Shown here piece by piece: positions 56,761 through 63,567 of a stretch of 64,000 nt of DNA. Below the pieces are notes generated by a model. It saw only the letters and a program-made list of their open reading frames with translations, ran no database searches and was not told where the DNA came from. Made by a program: the position numbers and the translations under genes. Source of the stretch: Maritimibacter sp. (GTDB taxonomy: Bacteria > Pseudomonadota > Alphaproteobacteria > Rhodobacterales > Rhodobacteraceae); NCBI GenBank assembly GCA_002695005.1, contig NZNT01000026.1, positions 62,001-126,000 of the forward strand. Reading direction: 5' to 3'. Each line of letters opens with the position of its first letter. Within the stretch, counting starts at the first letter, position 1.

Positions 56761-58869
56761 TCAGTCGGCGGCGGTGTAGTCCGGCGCGCCGCTCGCTGCG
56801 AGTTCCGGCCAGTCGCCGATCACATTGGCGCCGCGCAGCGGCTGCTGCTGGCCCTTGTGGCATGTGGCGCAGGCGGCCTTGGGGGCATCGCCGTGGTCGC
56901 CAAGGCGTTCCTCCGGCAACAAGTCCTTGAGCGGGAGGAGGTATTCCTCGTTCAGCTCCTGCACCATCGCGATCCCAAGGCTGGCCGTGTTCCACTGGGG
57001 CGTCACCTGCACCCCATCGTAGAAGGCGCGCGTGTTGTGACACAGCGTGCAGTTCACACCCAGAGAGTTCGCAATGTAGTTCATGAAGGCGTAGGTCCGC
57101 TCGGCATTCTGGATGGCAGGATAGCCGTCCTGACCCGGAACGCCTGCGACACGGGACTCGAGGTCATGAACCGCGATCGTCTCGTAGTTCAGGAGGTAAG
57201 CTTCGAGCGCGTCTGAAGGTAACGACGTGTATGTGCTCAGAGGCGTCACGGCATTCTGATTGGCTGACCAGCCGCTCGCGGCCATCACGGTTGGCGTTTC
57301 GAGGAACCAGATGTCGCTCGGCACGTTCTCGCCCCGGTGGCATGTGTAGCAGGTGACGCCCACCTCCTTGTTGGCGTTGACGTGGATGTCCCAGTTTTCA
57401 TTGATATTCTGGGTCATCTCGAGCATCCGGCGCGACACCACCTTGGTGTAGAGGTCGTCGTTGCCGTAGTCTTCAAGATCAACGTCGCCATGGCAGTAGG
57501 CGCACCCCTGCTCCGGGGCGACCCAGCGGGTCATGGCGGCCATCACGCGGTTGAAGTTGTCCTCGGTGAGATCGCCCAGCACCTCTACATTGTCATAGAT
57601 ATCACGGGCCAGGTCCTCCCCCCCTTCCGGAACGAAAGGCGGATCTTCGAAAAGGTCCGCAGCGCCCGGGTCGGGCGTGGCGAGGGTGCTTTCGAACTTC
57701 ACCACCGCCATGCCGGTGCCACGCGGACCGGTCTGGAGGCCGTCAGTCTTGAACGGCTGACCCAGGACCACCAGGGCCGTCGCGGCGATGACGAAGACAC
57801 CGACCGCGCCGAAGATGAAAACCGGCCTCTCGACGTCGATCGGGTTTTCACGGTTCCACTTTGAATACCAGTCAAACATGACTCCCTCCCCCTGCCCGTT
57901 GAAGGCTTCGTAGGAGCCGTAGGCGTCGTAGCCGTAAGATCCGTCGTAAGCCGGGGCGAAGTTGTGTTCCTGCGCCCAGATGAACCAGTTGTCGACGACC
58001 GTGCCGGTGAGCAGGATACCGATCCCGCCGGTGATCGGCGTGAGGACCGCGAACCACCACGCCCAGCGGTGGATGCCCTCCATCGTCGCATTGAACCCCA
58101 TCGTCCAGCGCCAGAAGAGGGCGGCGCGTTCGGTGGCGGTGCCCCGGTCGACGATCTGCTCGAGTTCCCGGTCGCCGCCGAAGCGGCTGACGGCAAGGAT
58201 CGTGGCGCCGTGCATCGCGAAGAGCAGGCAGGAGCCGTACAGGAACACGATCGAGAGACCGTGGAACGGGTTGTAGTAGAGGTTACCGTAGCGAATGCTG
58301 AAGGCCGTGGTCCAGTCGAGGTGTGGGAAGATGCCGTAGGGCACCGCCTCGGACCAGGAGCCCATCAGGATCGGCCGGAACAGGCCAAGCACGAGAAAGA
58401 GCCAGATGGCGGCGCCAAAGGCCCAGAAAACGTGTTTGCCCATCTTGTGGTCCTGCGCGAGCAGGTAGGTTCTCGCCCACCAGCTCATCACGCTGACCAG
58501 AAGCAGGAACGAGGCGATGATGTACCACCCACCCTCTTGCAGTGGCGGAATGGAAAGCCCCCATTCCGGGCCCGGCGGTTCGAGCGCGAGCCAGAAGCCC
58601 TGGCGCAGGAACTCGGTGATCGACCAGTCGACCTGAGCCAGCATGTTGATCCCGATGATGTTCATGCAGAGCACGAATGTCGCCGCCGAGACCATGCCGG
58701 TCCATCCGAGGTAGATCGGCCCGATCTGCGCGTTCCCGAACCAGCCGATCAGGCGGCTGAAGCCGGGTTTGCCCAGCCGCTCGGCGGCCATGTTGTTTTC
58801 GTTGTCCATGCCCATTTCCGGGGCGCCCTGGACCTGGACCTGCGTGAATATGTTTTGATATTCGGCCAT
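56761..58869 (-). CDS. pufMC: Fused reaction-centre M subunit and tetrahaem cytochrome subunit (PufM-PufC in one frame)
   Basis: 702 codons without a stop. Residues 1-329 are PufM: five membrane helices and the conserved ligands H183 (accessory BChl), H203 (special pair), H220, E235 and H267 (iron). Residues 331-702 are PufC: a membrane helix at about 349-370, QTGPRGTGM, then four haem motifs, CAYCH 456-460, CYTCH 507-511, CTLCH 607-611 and CATCH 667-671. The methionines at 443/446, 482/485 and 596 are candidate axial ligands. The linker (about 308-330) is rich in Tyr and Gly. Normally these are two genes. A strong SD and ATG at 57877 remain at the pufC position, so PufC may also be made alone. 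Loss of one base in the G5 run 57888-57892 could explain the fusion. Confidence 0.9.
57877..57892 (-). promoter_or_regulatory. pufC: Internal ribosome-binding site and ATG for free PufC
   Basis: On the minus strand GGGGGAGGGAG is followed after two bases by ATG (57877-57879), beginning the [10 protein letters not shown]-terminus that PufC normally has. The site is stronger than most in the cluster, so independent initiation of a 372-residue PufC inside the fused frame is likely. Confidence 0.7.
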
Positions 58870-58883
58870 TGTTCAGTCCCCCT

Positions 58884-59708
58884 TCACGGCCACAGCGGCA
58901 GTTCGAGCCACCAGTTCCACCACTCCGGCCAGCCCTTGGTCCAGACGGGGCCCGAGATGATGATGCACACGGCAGAGAAGAACACCGCGTTGATGGCGAG
59001 CAGGAAGCCCAGCCGGTGAATGCCCAGCGTTCCGATCGAGTACCCGATGAAATCGCGGAAGAACGTGTCCTCGTGATCGGGCGTCTTCATCTCTTCGCCC
59101 TTTTCGGGGTTCGCAGCCGACAGGATCAGGCCGCCGTGGAGCGCCAGGGCGAAGCAGGTCGCGAAGAACAGCGACACCGCGAGCATATGCGCCGGGTTAT
59201 AGTGGAAATGCAGGTAGGCGTAGCCGGTGTTGGACACCCAGTCGAGGTGACTGAAAATCCCGTATGGGAAGGCATAGCCCCAGGCGCCCATGAGAAGCGG
59301 GCGGAAGATCACGAGCGTGACATAGGCGAGGATCGCAAAGCCGAAGGCGAAGGGCACATGGTATCCGATCCCCAGTTTTCGGCAGATCTCGACCTCTCTG
59401 AGCGCCCAACTTATGAAAGCGCCTGTCGCGCAGATCGTGATGATCTGCCACAGGCCGCCCTCCATGAGAGGCGCGGCGCCCAGACCATATGACAGGTCCG
59501 GCGGCGCGATGTTGATGAGCCAGGGGTTCCAGGTCCCCTGATGAGCGGCGCCCCAGAAGATCAGGATCGTGCCAAGGGCCGCGAAGAAGATCGTGGTGAC
59601 TCCGAAGAAGCCGACATAGAAGGGTCCGACCCAGAAATCGAAGAGATCGCCGCCTACCAGCGTCCCTCCGCGGACCCGGTATTTTCGTTCGAAACTGAGT
59701 AGCGCCAT
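58884..59708 (-). CDS. pufL: Photosynthetic reaction centre L subunit
   Basis: 274 residues with five membrane helices. Conserved residues, each one above Rhodobacter numbering: H154 (accessory BChl), H174 (special pair), H191, E213 and D214 (QB proton route), S224 and H231 (iron). Begins [17 protein letters not shown], the usual start. It forms the core heterodimer with PufM and binds QB. Fourteen bases separate it from the pufM/C start. Confidence 0.96.
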
Positions 59709-59829: not shown

Positions 59830-59997
59830 TCATTCCGCAGCCATCGAGCGCGCTTCCGCGGCATTCTCGAACCAGTTCACGCCGTTCGACAGAACCACCA
59901 GGTGGATCATGACGGCCAACAGGAAGAGAAAGACCCCTTGCGCGACGAAGACTCGACGCGGATCGAAAATGAGCCAGATCTTATAGAAGTTGGACAT
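59830..59997 (-). CDS. pufA: LH1 antenna alpha polypeptide
   Basis: 55 residues: [20 protein letters not shown] at the start, one membrane helix (about 16-37), the BChl-binding His32 in IHLVVLS, and Trp42 after it. Start ATG at 59995-59997, behind AGGAGGA. It lies 12 bases after pufB. Two pigment molecules per alpha/beta pair build the LH1 ring around the reaction centre. Confidence 0.95.
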
Positions 59998-60009: not shown

Positions 60010-60159
60010 TCAGAACCAGGGGGCCCAAATGTACGTCGCGATGTGCGCGAGTATTGCAATCGCCGTGAACAGCCAGAGGCCGCTCATGTAGACAGAATGC
60101 AGCTCTTGGGCCTGCTCGTCAGTGAGACCTGTGAAGGACAGGTCGTTCTTATCAGCCAT
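60010..60159 (-). CDS. pufB: LH1 antenna beta polypeptide
   Basis: 49 residues: [20 protein letters not shown] then a membrane helix with the BChl-binding His39 ([14 protein letters not shown]). His21 is also conserved. Start ATG at 60157-60159, preceded by GGAGGA. First antenna gene of the puf segment, partner of pufA. Confidence 0.95.
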
Positions 60160-60177
60160 GAACTTTCCTCCGGAACG

Positions 60178-60243
60178 TTATGCTGACGCCGCGTTCCCCG
60201 CGGCCGGGTCCATCGGCTCCGCCAGAGCGGGGCTTCCGGGCAC
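60178..60243 (-). CDS. Possible pufK-like leader ORF before pufB
   Basis: A short frame ends TAA at 60178-60180, 18 bases before the pufB ATG. From ATG 60213 (behind GGCGGAG) it has 11 codons; from GTG 60243 it has 21. Rhodobacter sphaeroides has a 20-codon pufK at this place that modulates pufB translation. Sequence similarity cannot be judged, and the GC-rich context makes chance likely. The rest of the 136-base pufQ-pufB gap shows nothing clear. Confidence 0.25.
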   Translation of the reverse strand: MPGSPALAEPMDPAAGNAASA

Positions 60244-60295
60244 CACCCACCCATTCAGGCAGGTAGAACGGATCTCGACATCCGGGCCTTGCGGC

Positions 60296-60520
60296 TCAGA
60301 CCGAGAAAATCATGGGCGTGATCCGGTCGGCATCCGACCAGGCCCGCGCGAGCGGTCCCAGATGGTTGAGCGACCTGAGCCGGATCACGTCGCGCACCCA
60401 GGCCAGCCAGGCCATCGGGATCGCGAGACAGAAGATGAGCGTGAAGTAGATGATGAACTCCGGGCTTCGGCGGCTGTGCGCGCGACGCCTCGGGGGCGGG
60501 TTGGAAGAAAAGACCGTCAT
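60296..60520 (-). CDS. pufQ: PufQ, bacteriochlorophyll-related assembly protein
   Basis: 74 residues with basic N-terminus, RSPEFIIYFTLIFCLAIPMAW membrane helix (about 19-39), and the end LARAWSDADRITPMIF, like Rhodobacter PufQ. It influences bacteriochlorophyll supply to complexes. Starts 3 bases after the bchZ stop, as in the bchCXYZ-puf superoperon. Confidence 0.92.
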   Translation of the reverse strand: MTVFSSNPPPRRRAHSRRSPEFIIYFTLIFCLAIPMAWLAWVRDVIRLRSLNHLGPLARAWSDADRITPMIFSV

Positions 60521-60523
60521 GGA

Positions 60524-61996
60524 TCAGCACTCCTCTCTGCTGGGTGCCGCATCGGGCGACAGGGCGCGTACCGTCTCGAGCACGACCCGATCTGCCCCGT
60601 CACGCAGCGCGGCCGTCTCGGCAGCGTCGCGCAGGGTCTTCGCGGCGGAAATTCTTGTCAGAACCGGATGGCTCGCGACGATCTCATCGAGTGCGCGGGC
60701 GGCATCTTCGTCCCAGGGGAAGTCACGCTTGAGCGGCGTCGGCGTCGCCGAGACCGCATCCATGTCGCTCGCGAGCGGCAGAATGTGGAACAGCGCGTCG
60801 AACAGCCCGTTACAAACTTCCTGAAGCAGATAGGTCGCCCCGGCATAGCCCATCATCGGCGTGCCGGTGGCGCGGCGGATCGCGGCGCCCGGAAAACTTG
60901 CCGGGATGAAGGCGGGCTTCGGCCCGTGGCCCCCGGCGCTTTCGGCCAGGTACATCTTCTCGTTGATCGAACCCAACACGATCAGCGGGTGTTTCTGCGA
61001 AATCATCGCACGCACCGCGACGTTGTCAGTCTTGGTCCCGGCCGAGCGGGCGACAGCGAAGGCGCAAGGCAGTCCCATGTCGCCTTCAAGGAAATGGCGG
61101 ATACCGCGGGCATAGGTTTCGTTTGCGACAATCGCAAAGCTCGCCGTCGCGAAGAAGTCTTGCGTGACCGACCGCCACAGATCCCAGAGCGGCTTGATCG
61201 TCGAGTGCTTCTCGCGCTCGATGAACGGTTCCGGGTCGAGGCCTGTCAGATCACCGAGCTTGCGCAAGAAAAGCGTGGTCGACTCGACCCCGATGGGCGC
61301 TTGCAGATAGGGCTTGCCCAGCACCTCGCACAGTCCACGACCGAATTCACGATACATGCAGAGGTTGACGTCGGCATTCACCAGCTTGCGCATTTCGGCG
61401 ACATGGGAGCCCAGCGGCATCACCATGTTGACCTCGGCCCCGATGCCTTCAACCAGACGCCGGATCTCGGCAAGGTCCGAAGGCATGTTGAACGTGCCGT
61501 ACATGGGTCCGAGAATGTTCACGCGGGGCTTGTCACCTTCGGCGCGCTTGGCCTCGGTCGGCATCCGACCCTTTGTCATCCCGAACTCGGTAAAGGCCCA
61601 GGTCATCGCCCGGTCCGCCGACTGCCATTGATCCTCGTCGATCGTGCGCGGCAGGAACCGCTGAATCGAGGTGCCCTGAGGCGTGACGCCGCCGCCGATC
61701 ATCTCGGCGATCGACCCCGTGACGACCACCGCAGGCAGCGCGGGGTCCAGCGCCTCCCAGGCGCGCTTCATCGCACCCTCGGTCCCGGCCCGACCAAGTT
61801 CTTCCTCGCCAAGTCCCGTCACGACGATGGGCAGCTCATGCGGCGGAAGGGCATCGGTATAGTGGAGAACCGACGTCACCGGCAGGTTCTCGCACCCGAC
61901 CGGTCCGTCGATCACGACCTGAAGGCCCTTGATGGCGCAGAAGGCATAGACCGCCCCCCAGTATCCTCCGGCCCTGTCATGATCCTGGATCAGCAT
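60524..61996 (-). CDS. bchZ: Chlorophyllide reductase subunit Z
   Basis: 490 residues, nitrogenase-like catalytic subunit. Early block [18 protein letters not shown] and Cys35 in [31 protein letters not shown] is in the C-terminal half. With BchY and BchX it reduces ring B of chlorophyllide a. Its ATG shares one base with the bchY stop (TGATG). Confidence 0.95.
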
Positions 61997-63567
61997 CAGA
62001 TCATCTCCTGCGCCTTGCGGGCGCGTTCTTTCTTTTCGAGTTTCTTCTGGTTCAGCGCGCGGAAATCCGGACGCAGGTTCGGTGCGCCTTCCCAGATCCC
62101 GGCGGTGTCGCCCTGACCCACGCCCTCGAAGAAATCGCGCATCCGGCCCATCCGGGCCTTGCCCGCGATGGCCGCATTGACCACTTCGGCAAGGCTTCCG
62201 GCACCCGCCGGCCCCATGAGGGGGCGCGCGGAAATCAGATTGGTGAAATAGAGCGCCGGCGTTCCACGCTCCTTGGCCTTCTGCACCACCGGCGTCGTGC
62301 CGATGGCGAGGTCAGGAGCGAACGCTTCCATCGCGGCGCAATCGTCTTCGAGCGAGGCCCGGAATTTGACGGTCGCCCCACGGGCGCGCAGCCACTCGGC
62401 ATCATCCGCCGACCAGGGCGACTTGGCGCAGGCTGTTCCGACGTACGGCACCTCGGCCCCGCTTTCGATAAGGAGGCGGGCGACGATGAGTTCGCTGCCT
62501 TCGTACCCCGAGACCGTCACGCGGCCGTTGATCGGCGCTGCGGCGAGCGCACCCTTGATCGCGGGCAGGAAAGCGTTTTTCGCAGCGGCGATGTCTTCGG
62601 CAGAAACGTTGAACGCATTTCCGACGGCTTCGAGCCAGTTGGCGGTGCCTTCGACGCCGACCGGTGCAGAGCCGATGATCGGACGTCCGGCGGCTTCGAA
62701 CTCGCGGATGGCGGCGGTGTAGAACGGGTGAATCGCAGCGACCGCGCCGCAATCGAGCGCGGCATATAGCTCGCGCCACTCGCGACACGGGACCACGGGT
62801 CCAGCTGCGATGCCGAGTGGGGCGAGCATCTGGCCGATCATCACGGGATCGGCCGGGAACATCTCTCCCAGAAGCGTGAGTGTCGGACGATCCGATACAC
62901 CGCCTTCCGGGGCGGGAACCGGACCGGCCTCGACCTCGGCGCGGGCGTAGTTGAGCATCGCACCTGCGAGCACGTCCTTCGCTTCCGCGTGGGTCGGCAC
63001 ACCGAAGCCCGGCACGTCGATCCCAATGATGCGCACGCCGTTGATCTCGGAAGGAAGAAGCCGAAGCGGCACACCCGATGCCGTCGGCACGCAGAGATTG
63101 GTGACGATGACGGCGTCGAACTGGTCCGGGTCTGCGAGTTCGTGAACCGAGTCTCGGATGTCCTCGAACAGCTTGCCGGTCACGAGCGTTTCCGAATTGA
63201 ATGGGACATAGCCCACCGACCGGCGCGCGCCGTAGAAATGCGAGACAAAAGTCAGCCCGTAGACGCAGCAGGCGGAGCCGGACAGGACCGTCGCGACGCG
63301 CTTCATCCTGAGACCCACGCGCAGGCTTCCGAATGCCGGGCACATCGACTGCGGCTTGTCATGCGGGCCCTGCGGGTAGTCTGCGGCATATTGATCGAGG
63401 ATTTCCGACGATCCCGCCGCGCGGGCGGCCTTTTCGAACTCGGCACCGGACTGGCACGAAAGCCCGTCCACGGCCTGAGGCGCGGCTTGTGGCGTGGCGG
63501 AAGTTGCCTCCTCGCCGCGGATCACGTCGACCTCGGCGCTGTCGTCATATGTGACTTCGCCTGTCAT
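61996..63567 (-). CDS. bchY: Chlorophyllide reductase subunit Y
   Basis: 523 residues. It includes [18 protein letters not shown] and [27 protein letters not shown], with the Cys residues for the inter-subunit [4Fe-4S] cluster, and the ending [16 protein letters not shown]. The N-terminal 60 residues are acidic and variable. The start ATG at 63565-63567 overlaps a small upstream ORF by four bases rather than following bchX directly. Confidence 0.95.

Follow-up and report, generated by a model that had tools for sequence, protein, structure and literature searches.

In Roseiflexus and some other Chloroflexota, pufLM unites two reaction-centre genes in one stop-free frame (PMC5908803). That fusion joins L to M, is found lineage-wide and has been read as one fusion event (PMC5826079, PMC12650329). 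A PufM with an additional C-terminal domain has been reported among the PufM and PufC proteins that carry an OmpA-like domain, and in that case the authors allow for wrong gene models (PMC12650329). PufM of purple bacteria has five membrane helices (PMC5908803). PufC of Rhodopila globiformis and (presumed) Roseobacter denitrificans is a separate subunit with an N-terminal membrane helix ahead of the haem domain and its N-terminus at the cytoplasmic surface; the cytochrome of the R. globiformis reaction centre is full-length, and its N-terminus touches RC-M and RC-H (PMC9640540). At the level of titles and abstract openings, in a literature search with subscription journals largely outside its scope, no fusion of PufM to PufC was found. 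The available portions of PMC12650329, PMC5826079, PMC3150298, PMC5908803, PMC10516601, PMC9640540 and PMC10214105 deal with pufLM and Puf-OmpA fusions and do not mention one of PufM with PufC.

The stretch analysed here (the window; 64,000 nucleotides of contig NZNT01000026.1 from a Maritimibacter sp.) holds pufM and pufC in a single open frame of 702 codons with an ATG start (56761..58869, minus strand), as a first-pass annotation had claimed. The locus resembles the adjoining pufM and pufC of the Rhodobacteraceae and their relatives in gene order, in domains and in the Shine-Dalgarno-like stretch before the pufC ATG, and it shares frame and a 3-nt spacer with 38 of 111 such loci. It differs from all of these pairs in having a glycine codon where they have the intervening stop. 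Unlike pufLM, which is known to yield separate mature products, the frame joins M to C and occurs in one genome, and unlike the PufC of Rhodopila and Roseobacter its cytochrome is fused in frame to the protein upstream. The features referred to below are as follows.

58884..59708, minus strand: pufL, intact, upstream and in the same direction (TIGR01157, model positions 1-239 of 239)
59830..59997, minus strand: pufA (LH1 alpha), putative (open reading frame, sequence resemblance)
60010..60159, minus strand: pufB (LH1 beta), putative (open reading frame, sequence resemblance)
57886..58869, minus strand: pufM part, residues 1-328 (TIGR01115)
57883..57885, minus strand: GGA, Gly329, where in-frame relatives have the pufM stop (gap-free codon alignment)
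57880..57882, minus strand: GTC, Val330, the 3-nt spacer from the former stop to the pufC ATG (same spacing in 38 of 111 loci)
57882..57892, minus strand: Shine-Dalgarno-like GGGGGAGGGAG before the pufC ATG, containing the G5 run at 57888-57892 (pairing energy)
56761..57879, minus strand: pufC part, from its own ATG (Met331) to its stop codon, encoding a four-haem cytochrome (PF02276, NF040706)
57754..57825, minus strand: PufC residues 349-372, a hydrophobic stretch that is probably the N-terminal membrane helix (Kyte-Doolittle)
57490..57504, minus strand: haem site 1, CAYCH
57337..57351, minus strand: haem site 2, CYTCH
57037..57051, minus strand: haem site 3, CTLCH
56857..56871, minus strand: haem site 4, CATCH

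Both halves had been called complete, and the full-length model matches agree. In Pfam, the frame matches Photo_RC at residues 52-304 and CytoC_RC (PF02276) at residues 371-691. The NCBIfam model for pufM (TIGR01115) covers residues 1-306 with model positions 1-305 of 305 (530.3 bits against a cut-off of 364.25), and that for photo_cyt_PufC (NF040706) covers residues 375-691 with model positions 5-312 of 312 (419 bits against a cut-off of 150). Since both halves are complete, conserved genes, chance is ruled out as the source of the frame. The PufM ligands to pigment and iron, said to be all present, were found as H183, H203, H220, E235 and H267, whose roles we take from homology; all five are invariant across the 28 rows of alignment A2. 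The four CxxCH motifs expected in PufC lie at residues 456-460, 507-511, 607-611 and 667-671. Calculated masses of 77.9 kDa for the frame and 36.9 and 40.8 kDa for its parts are in line with those given earlier (about 78, 36 and 41 kDa). In the rest of the genome PufL was the sole further match to the 702-residue protein. Pairwise dN/dS against the same 13 relatives was 0.107-0.197 for M and 0.160-0.303 for C, values that average across a long branch and are blind to recent relaxation. Median pN/pS of the window against relatives was 0.219 for M and 0.368 for C, compared to 0.224 and 0.367 for the relatives among themselves.

No other genome examined has the fusion. Of 117 pufM ends read in relatives, 114 were followed by an adjoining pufC, with no fusion at any of the 114 junctions (one relative, L107 of Neomegalonema, did not fit the PufM motif used for classifying loci and was left unclassified). 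Within the genus the genes are present in two of eight genomes, the window's and G007; the frame is open only in the former, and G007 has a TGA. A search of the family gave a match in 166 of 394 genomes. Among the matches listed, the window's genome alone had a full-length match free of stops, while at least 14 others had a full-length match interrupted by one or two stops. Single full-length alignments to G007 and G008 had hinted at a fusion conserved across the genus or family; the junctions in both contain TGA, and the idea was rejected.

In wider samples, 18 of 385 genomes at class level and 21 of 398 at phylum level yielded PufC, with the window's genome included in both counts. Eight further genomes in these samples have PufC frames longer than 540 codons, and in none of the eight does PufM lie in the same uninterrupted frame. 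In seven of them (G743, G426, G922, G048, G526, G992 and G959) PufM lies out of frame or is separated from PufC by a stop, and in G1117 the PufM motif is absent and the upstream in-frame stretch of about 124 codons is too short for PufM. Eleven records of annotated plasmids match. In seven, the match spans 80% or more of the query and is split in two, and six of these have pufM and pufC annotated as separate genes. An established fusion would be kept in related species, and one of the Roseiflexus type would form a single frame across a lineage; the present frame is absent from the congener and from every junction read, and among the genomes examined is confined to that of the window.

The junction in the window reads CAG GGG GAG GGA GTC ATG. 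Among the 111 relatives' loci with a usable pufC start, pufM and pufC share one frame with exactly 3 nt between stop and ATG in 38 (L031, L035 and L111 are examples), and the stop is TGA in 29, TAA in 7 and TAG in 2. Removal of eight repeated loci leaves 103 distinct pairs, 36 of them with this arrangement. Roughly one in three of the relatives' loci is therefore one stop codon short of a fusion. The junction of Salibaculum griseiflavum (L035), CAG GGG GAG TGA ACG ATG, aligns to that of the window without a gap and keeps the CAGGGGGAG run, with five G as in the window, followed by TGA. That of Roseivivax halodurans (L049), GAG TGA GTC ATG, is unlike the window at one base of 12 (T versus G), and TGA GTC ATG is present in L041 as well. 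The congener G007 has GAG GAG TGA GCC ATG against GGG GAG GGA GTC ATG in the window, gapless and with equal spacing.

These comparisons suggest that the ancestor likely had a stop in frame with pufC, and the replacement of that stop by glycine may have been a single T>G change if the stop was TGA, or two steps if it was not. Which stop was ancestral is uncertain, a point against a simple substitution, since the nearest relatives are mixed. In the PufM tree the window falls with L052, L034, L036 and L114 (support for the five-member group 0.97). The nearest in-frame members have TAG ATC ATG (L034 and L036) or TAA GCC ATG (L114), while L052, the sister of the window (0.90), has TGA with a two-base spacer and is out of frame. 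A second point against substitution comes from the tree of whole PufC, which places the window with L072 and L073 (0.99), loci with a one-base spacer. This placement is due to the segment around the first haem, as segment trees indicate (see below), and on that account we set aside an origin of the junction from an L072-like one by a four-base deletion. We consider it probable that the locus has the ordinary pufL-M-C order and that the pufM stop, in frame with pufC, has been substituted to GGA in the sequenced genome. The stop loss would be young, because it is unique to this genome.

The start signals of pufC are retained. Predicted Shine-Dalgarno pairing at its ATG (57879-57877, Met331) is -14.0 kcal/mol, the best of 21 in-frame internal ATGs, the second best being that at residue 482 (-12.5 kcal/mol). 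The median for 96 relatives is -13.05 kcal/mol, and 35 of the 96 equal or exceed the strength in the window. Judged by this predicted site, PufC is probably still translated from its own start. With GGA in place of the stop, all ribosomes that complete PufM would continue into PufC and make a 78-kDa chain, and separate PufC would be made alongside it, initiated at the pufC ATG behind its Shine-Dalgarno site.

The long chain would face a problem of topology. The C-terminus of PufM is periplasmic, and haem c is not known to be attached in the cytoplasm. The hydrophobic segment of PufC (residues 349-372) has a Kyte-Doolittle maximum of 2.74, above that of 75 of 89 relatives. As the end of PufM is periplasmic and the start of the PufC helix should be cytoplasmic, a single chain would enter the helix from the wrong side, so that the haem domain would be carried into the cytoplasm. 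The retained helix is thus an argument against a working covalent fusion, and the fused product should work only if the helix is kept out of the membrane or the chain cleaved. In the pufLM of Chloroflexota the fusion likewise links a C-terminus on the periplasmic side with an N-terminus on the cytoplasmic side. For the haem domain of the long chain to be periplasmic, the PufC helix would have to fail to insert or the chain be cleaved; the outcome would be either a chain processed into two subunits or a reaction centre handicapped in assembly. A covalent 1:1 pairing of PufM and PufC would run against the expected membrane topology and is absent from the relatives examined; on topological grounds the fusion protein is unlikely to be the working form. 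An AlphaFold model of the whole frame (mean pLDDT 48.9, pTM 0.42) is too poor to inform on topology.

A base-call or consensus error, with T as the true base, TGA in place and pufM and pufC an ordinary pair, is possible though somewhat unlikely. It would account for the lack of fusion at all of the relatives' pufM-pufC junctions, and a T would give the TGA GTC ATG of L041 and L049. The site is preceded by GGGGGAG, and systematic Illumina errors have been described as falling mostly after G and being mostly T>G at GGT (PMC3295828), yet the motif in the window would be AGT and not GGT, the strongest in that report. The quality of the assembly also speaks against an error. It has 30 contigs and a completeness of 99.81, and an NCBIfam scan of 20 frames in the window (further bch and crt genes, for example, lay outside it) placed 17, the fused one included, above the curated cut-off, with no broken gene among the 17; two of the remaining frames had no family and one had weak matches below the cut-off. 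The intact scanned genes and near-complete assembly make a miscall less likely, while leaving it possible. The locus is thus best described as a stop-codon substitution in one genome, or a miscall there.

It is improbable that the M subunit and the tetrahaem donor are made and used as one chain, cut after insertion or with the PufC helix outside the membrane, so that the donor is tethered. A functional PufM-PufC polyprotein, covalent or self-processed and kept by selection, is very improbable. Its two halves are intact and under the ordinary constraint given by the pN/pS values above, and the pufLM of Roseiflexus castenholzii offers a precedent, lacking a typical pufL stop while the mature subunits are separate (PMC5908803, PMC10516601). 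Against it, the frame is found in a single genome, the PufC helix is retained and more hydrophobic than in most relatives, which suits insertion of a separate PufC, and the pufC start site is retained too.

The first-pass annotation had itself warned that one base could produce this picture, and its open frame, complete domains and warning all stand; the explanation that it offered, a G missing from the G5 run, does not. The run at 57888-57892 and the TGA at 57872-57874 (57874-57872 on the minus strand) are both present, and the arithmetic permits one base deleted or missed in the run to mask an eight-base overlap of pufM and pufC, but this is scarcely credible: in-frame relatives are gap-free with TGA, TAA or TAG at the position of GGA, L035 combines five G with a normal stop, and an overlap of eight bases, which had been called normal, occurs in 0 of 111 scored loci once two GTG mis-picks are set aside (both were first scored -8, and each has an ATG one base past the stop). 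As the in-frame relatives and L035 match the window, a missing G is superfluous and unsupported. The comparison of the junction in relatives that the annotation had called for gave unfused junctions throughout; the proposed frameshift lacks support.

Should the base be real, the strain offers a natural experiment on whether a reaction centre tolerates an M subunit that bears an extra membrane segment plus a haem domain, and on whether PufC can be supplied through an internal start. The arrangement also suggests a route by which fused genes such as the pufLM of Chloroflexota could arise, namely from neighbours in one frame that lose a stop. If the one-chain reading were true, fused reaction-centre genes would be known from a second, independent case in addition to pufLM, here in a proteobacterium and caught shortly after loss of the stop codon. 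If instead the base is an error, the locus becomes a cautionary case in which a single miscall mimics a gene fusion.

The pufC part also looks mosaic by sequence grouping. Among PufCs of the 111 relatives' loci, 26 have three CxxCH motifs (L002, L034, L036, L045, L047, L048, L052 and L114 among them) and 85 have four. The motif missing is the first in the 13 of the 26 that were seen in alignments, and the first is also absent in the alignment of the two closest solved cytochrome chains (9lts_C and 8yy9_C). The two ends of the window's PufC, its residues 1-55 and 166-372, group with L052, L114, L036 and L034 (0.955), the clade that its PufM also joins, and each of these has only three CxxCH. 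Residues 56-165, which carry the first CxxCH, group with the four-haem L038, L007/L094, L041 and L042 (support 0.81 to 0.91 when the tree is restricted to four-haem sequences). The segment limits were picked after viewing sliding identities, and as three-haem PufCs are gapped at 56-165, the segment is to some extent bound to group with four-haem sequences in general. The pattern suggests, as its simplest reading, that a haem-1 segment recombined into a three-haem lineage; repeated losses of haem 1 in other lineages are a possible alternative.

The surroundings are as expected of a photosynthesis gene cluster. Upstream of the fused frame lie, in order, pufL, two small frames that we name pufA (59830..59997) and pufB (60010..60159) from resemblance of sequence, bchZ and bchY, and dxs lies on its other side. 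The plus strand of the window carries hemA, acsF, puhB, puhA, bchM, bchL, bchH, bchB and bchN. Opposite bchZ there is an open frame of 664 codons (window positions 60122-62116, plus strand), which, like several other long antisense frames here, is probably a by-product of high G+C content.
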